A stretch of 64,000 nt of DNA from Pirellulales bacterium (GTDB lineage Bacteria; Planctomycetota; Planctomycetia; Pirellulales; PALSA-1355). Positions 48,343 through 54,340 of this stretch are shown here, in pieces. Numbering within the stretch: position 1 is the first letter of the stretch; every line of letters starts with the position of its first letter. A model generated the notes under the pieces. That model had not been told where the DNA came from and did not search any database. It saw nothing but the letters and a program-made list of their open reading frames with translations. The stretch covers positions 186,001 through 250,000 of the forward strand of contig JALHMI010000008.1 of assembly GCA_022844125.1 (NCBI GenBank). Reading direction: 5' to 3'. A program made the translations under genes and the position numbers.

Positions 48343-51300
48343 TCACTCCGCCTGCAGCCGGCGGATCATGGCTTTGAGCTCTTGCATCTCTTCCTGCATG
48401 CGGAGGAACTGCGTGGCGTCGGTCCCTTCGATCCGATCGATCACCCGCGGATCGGCTTCTTCGCGCCAGCCGCCGAGGGTGAGGAGCCAGGGAACGGCAC
48501 TCTCCGGGGCCCTACCGCCCAATGCGAACTCCGAGGCAGTTGTCCAGTTTTTGCGGGCCGCCTCTTGCGCCTCTTCTAGAGTTAAGCCGGCTACTTGCAC
48601 TTTTTGTTTGCTGCCGAGGTTCCCGTCACCGTCGACGGCGTAAGTGAACATATTTTCCTCCACTTCACCCAAGAGAAGCTTATCGCCAGGTTTAATCTTG
48701 TAGTCAGCCGCCGGTTGGCTGCCTTTGTCAAAAACCGCTCGCCCGCGACGCAGAACGCGTGTAGTGGGCAGGGCTGTTCTGGTCGAGAAGCTCTCGGACA
48801 GGTGCTTGCGCAATGCTTCGCCCGCCTCGATTTCCGTTAATCCGCCAAGTGTGGCGCGACCGCCGGCATGGGGCAAAGCCACGCGCCCGTCCGGTTCGAT
48901 CAGGTACGTGCCGCTGAGATTCGGAGTTTCACCGTTCAATTCGACGGGTTGCCCTTCATGGCTCGCAATGCGAATGCGTGGTTTCAGTGGAGCGATAATT
49001 TCAATCGTGTCCAGCGACTGCAGGACGACGGGCTCGGGGCGCATCGAGCCGACGACACCTGCGTTCGAGTTCGGTCGGCCGCTGTCACTGGGAGCAATCG
49101 CGGTCGCCGCAACGTTTTCGGCCACGACGCCGTTGTTGTGACCTTCGATCCGATCGATCACCCGCGGATCGGCCTCTTCGCGCCAACCGCCGAGGGTGAC
49201 GATCCAGGGAGTTGTGTACTCGGCGACATCCGGCGGATTTCCAAACTTAAAGGTGATTTTGCGTAGCGCGGCTTGGGCTTCTTCCAGCGAAAGACCGGCG
49301 AGATTTGCCTTTTCGGTCCCAGCTATGTGCGTAGCTGAGACATTCCCGTCAGCGTCAACCACGGTGGGCCAAAGCTGCGAGATCATCGTGCCCTTTAGCA
49401 CCGTATCGCCTGGCTTGATTCGATAGTCGGCCGCAGGCTCTTTTCCTTTGGCGAATACCGCACGTCCGCGGCGATAAACAGTTACCGACGGCAGCGCGAT
49501 CCGCGGAAACAAATGAACGGACAGATGCTCGCGTAGTTGCTTTCCGGCTTCTTCTGTTGTCAGCCCTGCCAACTTTACGCGACCTCCCGCTTCCGGCAGG
49601 GCAACGCGGCCGTCCGGCTCAATCACGTAGGTACCGCTGAACGACAAGTTCGAGCCAGTAAGGACTTCTCCGACTCTGCCATGGGAGTCGGACAAGAACG
49701 ATCGTGTTCGACCCAGCGGCAGGATGATCTCGATTGTGTCCAGTGGTTGCAGGAGGACAGGCTCGGCTGCGGGGGCGGGCATGTCTTGAGTGGACGCTAC
49801 TGCGGCCGCCGCGCCTTCGGCCACGACGCCATCGTCGTGACCTCCATAGGTGACAACGACTCGCGGGTCCTTGAGCACTTGCTTGAGTTTGTCGGTGATC
49901 GTCTGGCCGGCTTCGATGAGCGTCAGACCGGCGACGTTCACGCGACTGGCCGGGCCATAAATCGCGCCCAGGACCAGATTACCGTCGGGTTCGACTGTGC
50001 GCGGCGGGGGCGGCAAAGTATCGAAGCCGCCCGCGAGGTCAATGCCGAGGATGTCGCCGGGTCGGATGCGGCCGGAGAAAGGCTGGGATCTGTTGCGATT
50101 GGGATCGTCTCTGGATGCTCGTTCCTTCGTCGCAGACTCGGTGGCCAGCGTCTCCTGCTTTTCGTAGGGGTTTGTCGGTGGCGTCTGCCCAGCAAGCTGG
50201 CTCGCGAGTTGGCTCCAGCGATTGTCGAGCTTTTGCTCGAGCTCGGCGAGTTGCTGATCGATCGGAGTAATCTGCTTGTGGATTCTGTCGCGTTCTTTGG
50301 TCAGGATCTGCATCGCAGCCTGCTGCTTAAGGTAGTCGCGAGACAAACGCAGCCCCGCAATTTCGTCTCGGAGTTTGGCGACCTCCGTTTCAAACTGCCG
50401 CCGCTTCTTTTCAACATCCTCCGAACGAGCGGCAGGCGACGCTTCCGTGGCCGCCGGTTTTTCTGCTGGCGCCGGCTCGGCCGCTTCTGGCTCGGCACGC
50501 AGCGTTGCCACGCCGGCGATGAGTGCGATGCCGAGCATCACAGCCGCCACGTTCCAGCGGCGCGGAATCGTGCGCTCCAGCGGACGCGACTGATCGACGA
50601 GCATGACGACTCTCCGGTACAGTTCGCTGCGGCGCGGGGCGATACCCAGGCCCGGCGAGAGCGGCGTGGGACACAGCATCCGCGAAAGCGTGGTCAGCAG
50701 TTCGGCGTAATCCTCGGGAGTAGACGCTCCCGCAGCCGCTGCGTCGGCCAGGTAGTCCTGCGAGATCCGCAGCTCGCGGCGGAGCAGCCAGACCAGCGGC
50801 TGGTGAAAATGCACGAGGCGCACGAGACTCGCGAGCATCCAGGTGCGGATGTCACTGCGGGCGACGTGCGACCACTCGTGCGAGAGTGCGAGGCGAAGCT
50901 GATCCGGCGTAAGCTGCTTCACGACCCGCTCGGGAAGGATGATCGTCGGTCGCAGCCAGCCGAACGCGCAGGGCTGAGCGGCCCGGGGCGAGACAAGCAG
51001 TCGGACGTGGTTAGCAGTGAGTTGGCCCGTGTGAGTGGCGGCGATCTCTGCAAGCAGCCCGCGAACGTGCGGTTCCGCGGGTGCGGAGGTGCGAAGCAAT
51101 CGCCACATCGCGACGCGGCCGACGAGCCACCACAGCGCGAGTAGCGCGACGCCGAGCAAGTAGGCGGAGAGAATCAGCCGACGATAGTCGGGGAGTGAGG
51201 GAGTTGCGGCCGTCGAGCGTTCGCGCGGCGTTGACGCGGCCGGTCGCAGGGCGCGAGGCGGTGCGGGTGTGATCGTTGTCGGTGCAATCGGCGACGGCGC

Positions 51301-51744
51301 GATTGGCTCCGCGGCGATCGGTTGGGTCGGGCGAGCGTCGGCGTGGGGACTGTTCGCACGGGGCGTCGCGTCGTCCGGCATTGATGCCGGCTCGGGCGGG
51401 GCCGCATCGACGAGCGGGGTCGAGAAAGACCCCAGCGAAGCCGGGGGCTGAACGCGCTGCGGGACGGATACCGGGGTAGCCCCCGGCTTTGCCGGGGGGT
51501 TCTTCGCTTCCATCGCGATCGGCGTTCGCTCAGCAACCGCCGGCCACAACGTCGCGCGCGGGTAGCCCGGCAATAACGCGAGCGCCGGCAGCGCAAGCAG
51601 GCCGACAAGCGTGAGCTGGATCACGCGGATCTTGCGCGCGGGCTGGCGAATCGCCAGCACGGCGAGCGACGCCGCGGCTGTGAGCGCGAGGCCAGTAAGG
51701 GTCACGTTCAGCCACAAATCGAACGCAGGGACGAACCACGACAT
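48343..51744 (-). CDS. BlaR1/MecR1-like M56 metallopeptidase fused to multiple polysaccharide-export (Poly_export-like) domains
   Basis: LALSHEWSHVARSDIRTWMLASLVRLVHFHQPLVWLLRRELRISQDYLAD (HExxH); repeats IRPGDILGIDL...EPDGNLVLGAIYG, LQPLDTIEII...IEPDGRVALPEAGGRVKLAGLTTEEAGKQL, YRIKPGDTVL..., LQSLDTIEII..., YKIKPGDKLL... Confidence 0.88.
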   Translation of the reverse strand: MSWFVPAFDLWLNVTLTGLALTAAASLAVLAIRQPARKIRVIQLTLVGLLALPALALLPGYPRATLWPAVAERTPIAMEAKNPPAKPGATPVSVPQRVQPPASLGSFSTPLVDAAPPEPASMPDDATPRANSPHADARPTQPIAAEPIAPSPIAPTTITPAPPRALRPAASTPRERSTAATPSLPDYRRLILSAYLLGVALLALWWLVGRVAMWRLLRTSAPAEPHVRGLLAEIAATHTGQLTANHVRLLVSPRAAQPCAFGWLRPTIILPERVVKQLTPDQLRLALSHEWSHVARSDIRTWMLASLVRLVHFHQPLVWLLRRELRISQDYLADAAAAGASTPEDYAELLTTLSRMLCPTPLSPGLGIAPRRSELYRRVVMLVDQSRPLERTIPRRWNVAAVMLGIALIAGVATLRAEPEAAEPAPAEKPAATEASPAARSEDVEKKRRQFETEVAKLRDEIAGLRLSRDYLKQQAAMQILTKERDRIHKQITPIDQQLAELEQKLDNRWSQLASQLAGQTPPTNPYEKQETLATESATKERASRDDPNRNRSQPFSGRIRPGDILGIDLAGGFDTLPPPPRTVEPDGNLVLGAIYGPASRVNVAGLTLIEAGQTITDKLKQVLKDPRVVVTYGGHDDGVVAEGAAAAVASTQDMPAPAAEPVLLQPLDTIEIILPLGRTRSFLSDSHGRVGEVLTGSNLSFSGTYVIEPDGRVALPEAGGRVKLAGLTTEEAGKQLREHLSVHLFPRIALPSVTVYRRGRAVFAKGKEPAADYRIKPGDTVLKGTMISQLWPTVVDADGNVSATHIAGTEKANLAGLSLEEAQAALRKITFKFGNPPDVAEYTTPWIVTLGGWREEADPRVIDRIEGHNNGVVAENVAATAIAPSDSGRPNSNAGVVGSMRPEPVVLQSLDTIEIIAPLKPRIRIASHEGQPVELNGETPNLSGTYLIEPDGRVALPHAGGRATLGGLTEIEAGEALRKHLSESFSTRTALPTTRVLRRGRAVFDKGSQPAADYKIKPGDKLLLGEVEENMFTYAVDGDGNLGSKQKVQVAGLTLEEAQEAARKNWTTASEFALGGRAPESAVPWLLTLGGWREEADPRVIDRIEGTDATQFLRMQEEMQELKAMIRRLQAE
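51428..51451. repeat. REP-like element family I, divergent copy
   Basis: GACCCCAGCGAAGCCGGGGGCTGA inside the M56 CDS. Confidence 0.45.
51477..51502. repeat. REP-like element family I
   Basis: TAGCCCCCGGCTTTGCCGGGGGGTTC; 8-bp arms CCCCCGGC/GCCGGGGG with 3-nt loop. Confidence 0.65.
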
Positions 51745-51746
51745 GG

Positions 51747-52133
51747 CTATTTCCCCTTTCGCGATGGCTCTTTTCGCTTGCGGGCAGCGGAGATAATCTG
51801 CTCCAACTTTTTGAGCTCGGCATCGCTAACGTTGCGCGAGCTGAGCAGGCTGACAACGAGCTGATCGAGAGAACCATCGAACATCTTGTCGACCAGCCGC
51901 GACGTCTCATTCTCACGTGTGCGGCGCGGCGAGTAAACGAACGTGCGTCCCTCGCGCTGGTGCTCGACCAGCCCCTTGTCGTCCATGATCCGCAGCAGCG
52001 TCTGAACCGTGTTGAAGGCCAGTTCGCCATCCGGCGCCATCTGCTCGTGGACCTGGCGCACGGTCGAGGGGCCGGCGTCCCACAGGATTTTGAGAATTTC
52101 GAGCTCGCGGCCCGAGGGATTGCGATCGGTCAA
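51747..52133 (-). CDS. BlaI/MecI/CopY-family transcriptional repressor
   Basis: PSGRELEILKILWDAGPSTVRQVHEQMAPDGELAFNTVQTLLRIMDDKGLVEHQREGRTFVYSP. Confidence 0.92.
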   Translation of the reverse strand: MTDRNPSGRELEILKILWDAGPSTVRQVHEQMAPDGELAFNTVQTLLRIMDDKGLVEHQREGRTFVYSPRRTRENETSRLVDKMFDGSLDQLVVSLLSSRNVSDAELKKLEQIISAARKRKEPSRKGK

Positions 52134-52170: not shown

Positions 52171-52188
52171 AACCTAATAACTTAGGTT
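52171..52188. promoter_or_regulatory. Candidate BlaI-type operator
   Basis: AACCTAA-TAAC-TTAGGTT perfect 7+7 inverted repeat, 38 bp upstream of the blaI-like start. Confidence 0.6.
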
Positions 52189-52244
52189 ATTGTGCCGCCC
52201 GCGGAATCGATTGTCAAGATCGAGCACCGAAAAAATTAGGTCTC

Positions 52245-52344: not shown

Positions 52345-53166
52345 TCACTGCAGCACGCAGCGCAGGCCCACCGCGTCGTCTTTCAAGGTGCGGTCGGCGG
52401 CGCGGCGAAAGCTGCTGGTGAGCTGCTCGGCGGGGTCTTTCCAACTCCCGCCGCGAAGAACGCGCTGCGAGGCGTCGCCGCCCGCAGTCCAGGCAGTTCC
52501 GTCCGCCGGCGCGCCGGTGTAGTCCTCGTGCCAGGTGTCGGCGCACCACTCCCAGAGATAGCCGTGCACATCGTAGAGCTGCCAGGCGTTGGGCTTCAGC
52601 ACGCCGACGGCCGGATCATTGCCAGCCGCGTTCCGCGTGCTCCAGGCATGGGCATCGAGCTGGGCCACGTCGTCGCCAAACGAGTACACAGTCGTGGAGC
52701 CAGCCCGGGCGGCGTACTCCCACTCGGCTTCCGTGGGCAGGCGGACCTTCTGGTCGAGATTGATCTTCTGTAGTGCCCGCAGAAGCATTGTGATCCGCTT
52801 GCAGAACTCATTGGCTTCGTCCCAGGTGAGCATCTCGACGCTGTTGCGGGGACCTTTCCAGCGGCTGGGATTCGTGCCCATCACGGCCTGCCACAGATTC
52901 TGCGGCACCTCGTAGCGCGAGATACAAAAGGGCTTGAGCGCGACGCGATGCGCGGGGCGTTCGCTCGCCGGGCCATCGTCGCGACCCATGTTGAAGTCGC
53001 GAGGAAAGCCATTCTCGCCAGGCGTCACGGCGATGAGTTCTTCGAAAAAAGTCGTTACCAAGCGGCGCTGCTCGTCGCTGATGTCGATCGCGAGTGCGGG
53101 CTCGGCTGCGAGAGAGAGCACTGCCGCGAGGAAGAAGAACGAAGTGGCCGTTAAGCGAAGGATCAC
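52345..53166 (-). CDS. SUMF1/formylglycine-generating-enzyme-fold protein, apparently without the catalytic cysteines
   Basis: LPTEAEWEYAARAG, GYLWEWCADTWHEDY, RVLRGGSWKDPAEQLTSSFRRAADRTLKDDAVGLRC. Confidence 0.88.
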   Translation of the reverse strand: MILRLTATSFFFLAAVLSLAAEPALAIDISDEQRRLVTTFFEELIAVTPGENGFPRDFNMGRDDGPASERPAHRVALKPFCISRYEVPQNLWQAVMGTNPSRWKGPRNSVEMLTWDEANEFCKRITMLLRALQKINLDQKVRLPTEAEWEYAARAGSTTVYSFGDDVAQLDAHAWSTRNAAGNDPAVGVLKPNAWQLYDVHGYLWEWCADTWHEDYTGAPADGTAWTAGGDASQRVLRGGSWKDPAEQLTSSFRRAADRTLKDDAVGLRCVLQ

Positions 53167-53311: not shown

Positions 53312-54340
53312 CTACTTCTTGCCGTTGCCGGGCGTGTCGCCGCCACTGGTGCCGGTGGTCAGATTGCCCGAGCGGAACGCGGCAGCCATCGCGCGGGGCA
53401 CCTCGGCTTCAGCCATGATCACGCGGGCGCGGTTCTCGGCGACGCGGGCTTTCATCTCCTGTTCCGAGGCAATCGCGATCGCGCGGCGCTCTTCGGCTTT
53501 CGCCCGGGCCACGCGCGTGTCGGCCTCGGCCTGATCGGCCTGCAGGCGGGCGCCGATGTTTTCGCCCACGTCAATGTCGGCGATGTCGATCGAGACGATC
53601 TCGAACGCGGTGTGCGCGTCGAGGCCGCGATCAAGCACGGCCTTCGAGATGCGATGCGGGTTTTCCATCACTTCGAAGTGACTGGCGGCCGACCCAATCG
53701 AAGTAATGATCCCTTCGCCGACGCGGGCGATGATTGTTTCTTCGGTCGCTCCACCGATGAGCTGGGCCAGGTTCGTGCGCACCGTGACGCGGGCGCGAAT
53801 CCGCAACTCGACGCCGTTCTTCGCCACGGCGCTCAGGTGCGACCGCTTGGACTTGGAAGGATCGGGGCAGTCGATCACCTTGGGATAGACGCTCGTGCGC
53901 ACCGCTTCGAGCACGTCGCGCCCGGCCAGGTCGATGGCCGCGGCGCGGTCGAAGTCGAGATCGATGTCGGCCCGATGCGCGGCGATGATTGCCATGATCA
54001 CGTTCGGCACGTTGCCGCCGGCCAGGTAATGGGCCTCGAGCCGGCGGGTGGTGATGCCCGTGGTCGGATCGTTGCCGACGCCGGCCTGCAAGGCCATGAT
54101 CCGGGCCTTCACGATCACGCTGGAGTTCACCTGTCGCAGGCTCATCCCGATCAGGCTGGTGAAGCCCACCCGGGCATTCGACATGTAGGCCTGGAACCAA
54201 ACGCTGCCATAGGCGGCGATCGTGATCAGGAAGAAAAAGAAGAACACCGCGATCGCGAGCAGGCCGATGTACATCAGCCAGCGACTGATATCGATGTCGG
54301 GGCCGGCCTGGGCGAGCAGGAGCGTGGAGAGCAAGCTCAT
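53312..54340 (-). CDS. floA: Flotillin-like protein FloA
   Basis: [107 protein letters not shown]. Confidence 0.92.

Follow-up and report, generated by a model that had tools for sequence, protein, structure and literature searches.

BlaR1 is a known antibiotic (penicillin) sensor of staphylococci. In the window analyzed here, the whole stretch of 64,000 nucleotides, one gene encodes a membrane protease of this kind with an array of Poly_export-like (PES) units in place of the penicillin-binding sensor. This raises the question of what such a protein, designated M56-PES in this report, responds to and which genes it controls. The preliminary description regarded it as part of an antirepressor system sensing exopolysaccharide or an envelope polymer. 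The gene is composed as follows:

48343..51744, minus strand: fusion of M56 metallopeptidase, coiled coil and Poly_export array (1133 aa, ATG start; Pfam and models)
50599..51183, minus strand: Peptidase_M56 domain, residues 188–382 (Pfam E = 5.2e-22)
50866..50880, minus strand: HEWSH zinc/catalytic motif, residues 289–293 (sequence, alignment)
51178..51567, minus strand: Pro/Ala-rich TM2-TM3 loop of 130 aa at the position of BlaR1 EL1 (hydropathy; low-confidence and unstructured in the model)
50194..50430, minus strand: long helical, coiled-coil-like segment past TM4, residues 439–517 (AF2 helices 439–478 and 482–517)
49834..50076, minus strand: PES unit 1, residues 557–637 (PES profile; best Pfam stretch 559–632)
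49141..49764, minus strand: PES block A, residues 661–868, two PES-like units (PES profile, block comparison)
48424..49035, minus strand: PES block B, residues 904–1107, a duplicate of block A (55% identical; DNA repeats)
48346..48417, minus strand: C-terminal helix, residues 1110–1133 (model; kept in the G001 orthologue)

The N-terminal half is a BlaR1-type protease, as had been described. Its Peptidase_M56 domain scores 78.8 bits in Pfam (cut-off 31). In the full-length AlphaFold model the membrane-protease part has a pLDDT of about 90 and the C-terminus is weak. The best PDB matches of the N-terminal model are the cryo-EM structures of S. aureus BlaR1 (E 5e-7), with an r.m.s. deviation of 3.1 Å to 8exr_A for 175 aligned columns. 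Residues H289, E290, H293, D298, D334, Y346 and R378 are invariant among 17 aligned M56 proteins. We match them to H201, E202, H205, D210, D246, Y261 and R294 of BlaR1, the roles of which have been described (PMC9834060). The predicted third zinc ligand is Asp330 (E242 in BlaR1); this residue is Asp in the nearest relatives and Glu in most others. Of the third ligand and support residues (ExxxD, D210, Y261 and R294 in BlaR1), D298, D334, Y346 and R378 are invariant, but the Glu position is occupied by Asp330 in this subclade.

The C-terminal part past TM4 comprises 716 aa. The long coiled coil and the "about five" Poly_export-like units of the preliminary description are both recovered, the former as the modelled helical segment and the latter as five stretches matching Poly_export (PF02563, Pfam E = 3.5e-35). 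The array consists of one free unit and two blocks of ~210 aa with two units each. Blocks A and B are 55% identical (E 3e-70), and at the DNA level their duplication shows up in direct repeats of 69 nt (94%) and 39 nt (82%). A separate model of residues 545–1133 has a mean pLDDT of 66, with well-modelled unit cores of 80–94, so the predicted structure of the PES array is of moderate quality only. OPX proteins are the best matches of this model: WzaB (3.2e-5), Wza and Wza-Wzc complexes. The PES profile also retrieves Wza by sequence, and the sequence of M56-PES retrieves PslD and BlaR1 weakly. No SLBB domain was detected by Pfam at E ≤ 1. The N-terminus of the protein is the M56 membrane domain, and the protein does not have the signal peptide and the secreted or outer-membrane form of OPX proteins.

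The penicillin-binding sensor is missing, in agreement with the earlier claim. Neither Pfam nor NCBIfam detects a transpeptidase or beta-lactamase-like domain, and with the NCBIfam model of the BlaR1 beta-lactam sensor, for which the cut-off is 400, the protein reaches 48 bits. The protein is therefore an M56 protein, yet it is not classed as a beta-lactam receptor. Sensing of beta-lactams was rejected on this domain content. A divergent sensor of beta-lactams or peptidoglycan fragments, akin to classic BlaR1, would fit the BlaR1-like M56/BlaI core. Another M56 system of the genome, moreover, has the operator TACTACATATGTAGTA upstream of its blaI gene (L076, G000:C14, M56 with HEAT ectodomain), which presumably resembles the classic staphylococcal mec/bla operators. 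Against the domain content and the low equivalog score, we regard such a sensor as very improbable.

BlaR1 has an N-out/C-out topology (PMC9834060). Hydropathy indicates four hydrophobic segments in M56-PES (14–32, 41–59, 190–208 and 399–417), and the C-terminus follows TM4. Since the topology of BlaR1 is N-out/C-out, the PES array is predicted to be extracytoplasmic, as had been proposed, and would face the periplasm. According to hydropathy the TM2-TM3 loop lies where BlaR1 has its EL1 loop, which occupies the sensor (PMC9834060).

The region upstream of the protease gene contains the following features:

51747..52133, minus strand: blaI-like repressor gene, 128 aa, TTG start (Penicillinase_R E = 5.6e-27)
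52172..52187, no strand assigned: predicted operator O1, ACCTAATAACTTAGGT, a perfect ACCTAA-N4-TTAGGT just downstream of the -10 element (palindrome search)
52189..52217, minus strand: sigma-70-like promoter TTGACA-17-CACAAT between O1 and O2 (10/12 matches; mean of 0.0 in shuffles)
52226..52241, no strand assigned: predicted operator O2, directly before the -35 element and at a distance of 54 bp to O1 (one mismatch)

The adjacent repressor gene noticed earlier is thus a Penicillinase_R member, located upstream and ending 2 nt before the M56-PES gene. A blaI gene adjoins the M56 gene also in the genomes G001 and G002 and at nearly all sampled M56 loci. At the putative BlaI cleavage position, as aligned to an S. 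aureus BlaI sequence, the clade of this locus has Ser-Leu and not Asn-Phe. The aligned BlaI proteins have Leu at P1' more often than any other residue. Phe has been reported as almost invariant at P1' (PMC9834060).

G001 and G002 carry the same fusion. The G001 orthologue (1514 aa) has one PES block and more free units than M56-PES, hence the number of PES units varies. In the G002 orthologue there is an in-frame TAG right behind the second PES unit (L068:2748-2750). The frame beyond it holds 148 further codons with a coiled-coil-like stretch; this may reflect decay, a sequencing error or the real end of the protein. Nothing was found in favor of an artefact of assembly or gene prediction that fuses two genes: the gene at hand is a single uninterrupted frame, and the fusion is present in G001 and G002 together with blaI and the operators as well as in other families. 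This explanation is refuted thereby.

O1 and O2 are predicted to flank the blaI promoter. G001 and G002 each have two perfect operator copies, likewise with a distance of exactly 54 bp between them. In the 6.44-Mb genome O1 is the only perfect match to ACCTAA-N4-TTAGGT. If one mismatch is allowed, three sites are found genome-wide, two of them at the M56-PES locus; the one site outside the locus compares with four for the reversed control. With two mismatches, 27 sites face 112 in the reversed control, i.e. noise. This operator search of the 6.44-Mb genome yielded no output gene outside the blaI-M56 operon. The pair O1/O2 around the blaI promoter, including the sole perfect copy in the genome, therefore predicts a tightly autoregulated two-gene operon. 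All perfect operator copies in G001, G002, G007, G021 and G023 are located at blaI-M56 loci. The M56 proteins at these loci of G007 (HEAT), G021 and G023 have ectodomains without PES. A constant operator and M56 core are thus combined with different ectodomains. Differing promoter palindromes of their own are found at several further blaI genes in the genome, e.g. CGTTAA-N4-TTAACG and TACTACATATGTAGTA. In view of these palindromes, we interpret the BlaI-M56 pairs of the genome as circuits that are insulated from each other and regulate themselves.

Control of its own promoter alone would also suit a PES array that is itself the effector. The self-amplifying loop would then make an inducible, membrane-tethered or shed OPX-like protein and the protease would only set the dose. 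The only detectable operator sites are on the operon's own promoter, no clear same-strand gene follows the M56-PES gene, and other families have M56 joined to an almost complete OPX-like piece. M56-PES itself, however, lacks SLBB, a lipobox and any outer-membrane part, and promoter palindromes are arranged similarly at other M56 genes whose products have enzyme-like or repeat ectodomains. An effector of this kind is unlikely.

The genome contains ten M56 genes, of which that of M56-PES is the only one with PES. The ectodomains of the others include LRR, HEAT, carboxypeptidase-regulatory (CarboxypepD_reg), thioredoxin and secretin-like domains. Another M56 gene of the same genome (L070:8603-9865(+), C8:111382) contains an in-frame TAG inside the protease domain, followed by 977 open codons. 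Two Poly_export genes on different contigs (G000:C2:454384-454818 and G000:C20:47336-47770) have identical scores and frame lengths, which may result from duplication or assembly overlap.

A profile search for fusions of Peptidase_M56 and Poly_export had been suggested beforehand. In the sampled genomes of the order, 14 M56-PES fusions were found in addition to the present one (families f1, f2, f7, f9, f18 and f19). Some have isolated PES units, whereas in others the OPX-like piece is almost complete (L079, L118, L159, L160, L163, L164 and L166, from other families). Eight changes of the PES label are required on a tree built from 77 M56 domains, and well-supported branches force at least six of them. 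The rows of this tree were picked by similarity to M56-PES or for PES, so its PES fraction is not a frequency. A single origin of the PES fusions in one clade was rejected (p-AU 1.8e-37). G007, the nearest relative without PES, nests within the well-supported four-row clade of M56-PES. At the ectodomain position of M56 there were hence no fewer than six gains or losses of PES.

PES units are not confined to M56 proteins. ECF sigma factors with one to six C-terminal PES units are present at L110:6168-9707(-), L112:5210-9172(+), L113:5815-7875(-), L114:4897-7068(-), L115:5911-7941(-) and L165:3898-6021(-); that of L112 also bears two peptidoglycan-binding domains. A Ser/Thr kinase (L111:3495-5798(+)) has Secretin_N and two Poly_export units past its membrane segment. 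Given these fusions to M56, ECF sigma factors and a kinase, PES is a recurrent sensor-position module in the signalling proteins of the order. It seems centred on the order, since among 199 genomes sampled across the phylum only one from outside the order had such a unit above threshold. No description of M56/Poly_export or PES signalling fusions was found in the open-access literature. The BlaR1/BlaI core is already known; the PES input is new.

The array could alternatively be a scaffold for oligomerisation or docking, which forms rings or ties the protease to a Wza/Wzc-type machine, with the signal sensed in the membrane or the TM2-TM3 loop. Among solved structures, its nearest relatives are OPX proteins such as the octameric Wza; helical segments flank the PES array on both sides and the number of units differs between orthologues. 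Yet PES is repeatedly placed where other M56 proteins carry LRR, HEAT, carboxypeptidase-regulatory or thioredoxin domains, which fits an exchangeable input module. A mere scaffold is rather doubtful.

The neighborhood gives no hint of the ligand. No EPS genes are linked to the M56-PES locus (Pfam of the neighbors) or to the sampled fusion loci. PIG-L, FGE-sulfatase and FloA are the neighbors here; at other fusion loci the adjacent genes are unrelated and not conserved. The gene for the flotillin-like FloA (53312-54340(-), E = 6e-131) lies close upstream and is not a conserved neighbor. Between it and the blaI-M56 locus there is a gene with an FGE-sulfatase domain (52345-53166). The OPX architecture includes SLBB, which is predicted to contact sugar (PMC9603273). 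Of the preliminary reading, the antirepressor unit with a swapped sensor gains support from operator, promoter, catalytic residues and repeated fusions, whereas the exopolysaccharide or envelope-polymer ligand does not, as neither linked EPS genes at the sampled loci nor SLBB in the protein were found. Judging from the domain, a polysaccharide or the Wza/Wzc machine is a natural first guess for the partner of PES. Polysaccharide sensing by the array is plausible; a scaffold or effector role of the array itself is possible.

Taken together, the locus probably encodes a proteolytic antirepressor unit of the BlaR1/BlaI type, in which a PES array has replaced the ectodomain sensor. The sequences and models show the domains with their fold matches, the catalytic residues, the conserved pair of operators and the repeated independent fusions; BlaI binding and cleavage, the periplasmic location of the array, sensing and ligand are inferred. 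Considering the conserved sites, a dimer of the BlaI-like protein would bind O1 and O2 around the promoter and repress its own two-gene operon. Homology and topology suggest that the 4-TM M56 protein directs its protease towards the cytoplasm and the coiled coil and PES array towards the periplasm. The trigger would be an altered binding partner of the PES array, most probably the state of an OPX/PCP assembly for polysaccharide export or another polymer partner in the periplasm. The signal may be relayed by the coiled coil together with TM4 and the long TM2-TM3 loop. The active site would be freed from the autocleavage loop (predicted site G367-I368), and the protease would then cut BlaI (predicted at S95-L96) and the operon would be derepressed. 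Several points count against this account: Asp330 instead of Glu, Leu at P1', no EPS neighbors, no SLBB, no output gene beyond the operon, a PES array that may serve oligomerisation only and the moderate C-terminal model. In a broader and tentative extension, PES might be a general extracytoplasmic input of the order that reports polysaccharide export to M56, ECF and kinase outputs, with the BlaI-M56 pairs, each with an operator of its own, as insulated, self-amplifying loops and the M56-PES loop controlling itself alone.

M56-PES resembles the BlaR1/MecR1-BlaI/MecI systems (S. aureus, B. licheniformis; MEROPS M56) in the 4-TM M56 protease with catalytic residues in place, the predicted extracytoplasmic C-terminus, the adjacent winged-helix BlaI and the palindromic operators at a shared promoter. 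It differs in the PES array replacing the penicillin-binding sensor, Asp for Glu as third zinc ligand, Leu at P1' of BlaI, the long Pro/Ala-rich TM2-TM3 loop, the operator ACCTAA-N4-TTAGGT and the lack of a resistance gene as output. With OPX proteins (Wza, PslD, WzaB; PF02563) it shares the Poly_export domain in sequence and fold. Unlike these, it has no signal peptide or lipobox, SLBB or Wza_C pore, and its five tandem PES units are anchored to a protease of the inner membrane. The core and gene order are the same in other BlaI-M56 pairs of the order; their promoter palindromes differ from pair to pair and their ectodomains are LRR, HEAT, CarboxypepD_reg, thioredoxin or secretin-like. The PES-bearing ECF sigma factors and the Ser/Thr kinase (L110, L111, L112-L115 and L165) have PES at a presumed extracytoplasmic position as well, whereas their output is a sigma factor (L110, L112-L115, L165) or a kinase (L111) and not a repressor protease. 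No sensor of the M56-PES type for feedback on polysaccharide export is described in the papers searched. At these loci the BlaR1 protease-repressor core is present in many copies per genome, its ectodomain is exchangeable and its operators differ, and its PES variant is a testable candidate for a bacterium reading the state of its own polysaccharide export. As the operator pair O1/O2 is defined, a direct reporter assay is possible. Because the sensor was swapped for export-pore domains several times independently, the comparison suggests a BlaR1-type signalling machine that has been redirected to the envelope or sugar coat of the cell itself.
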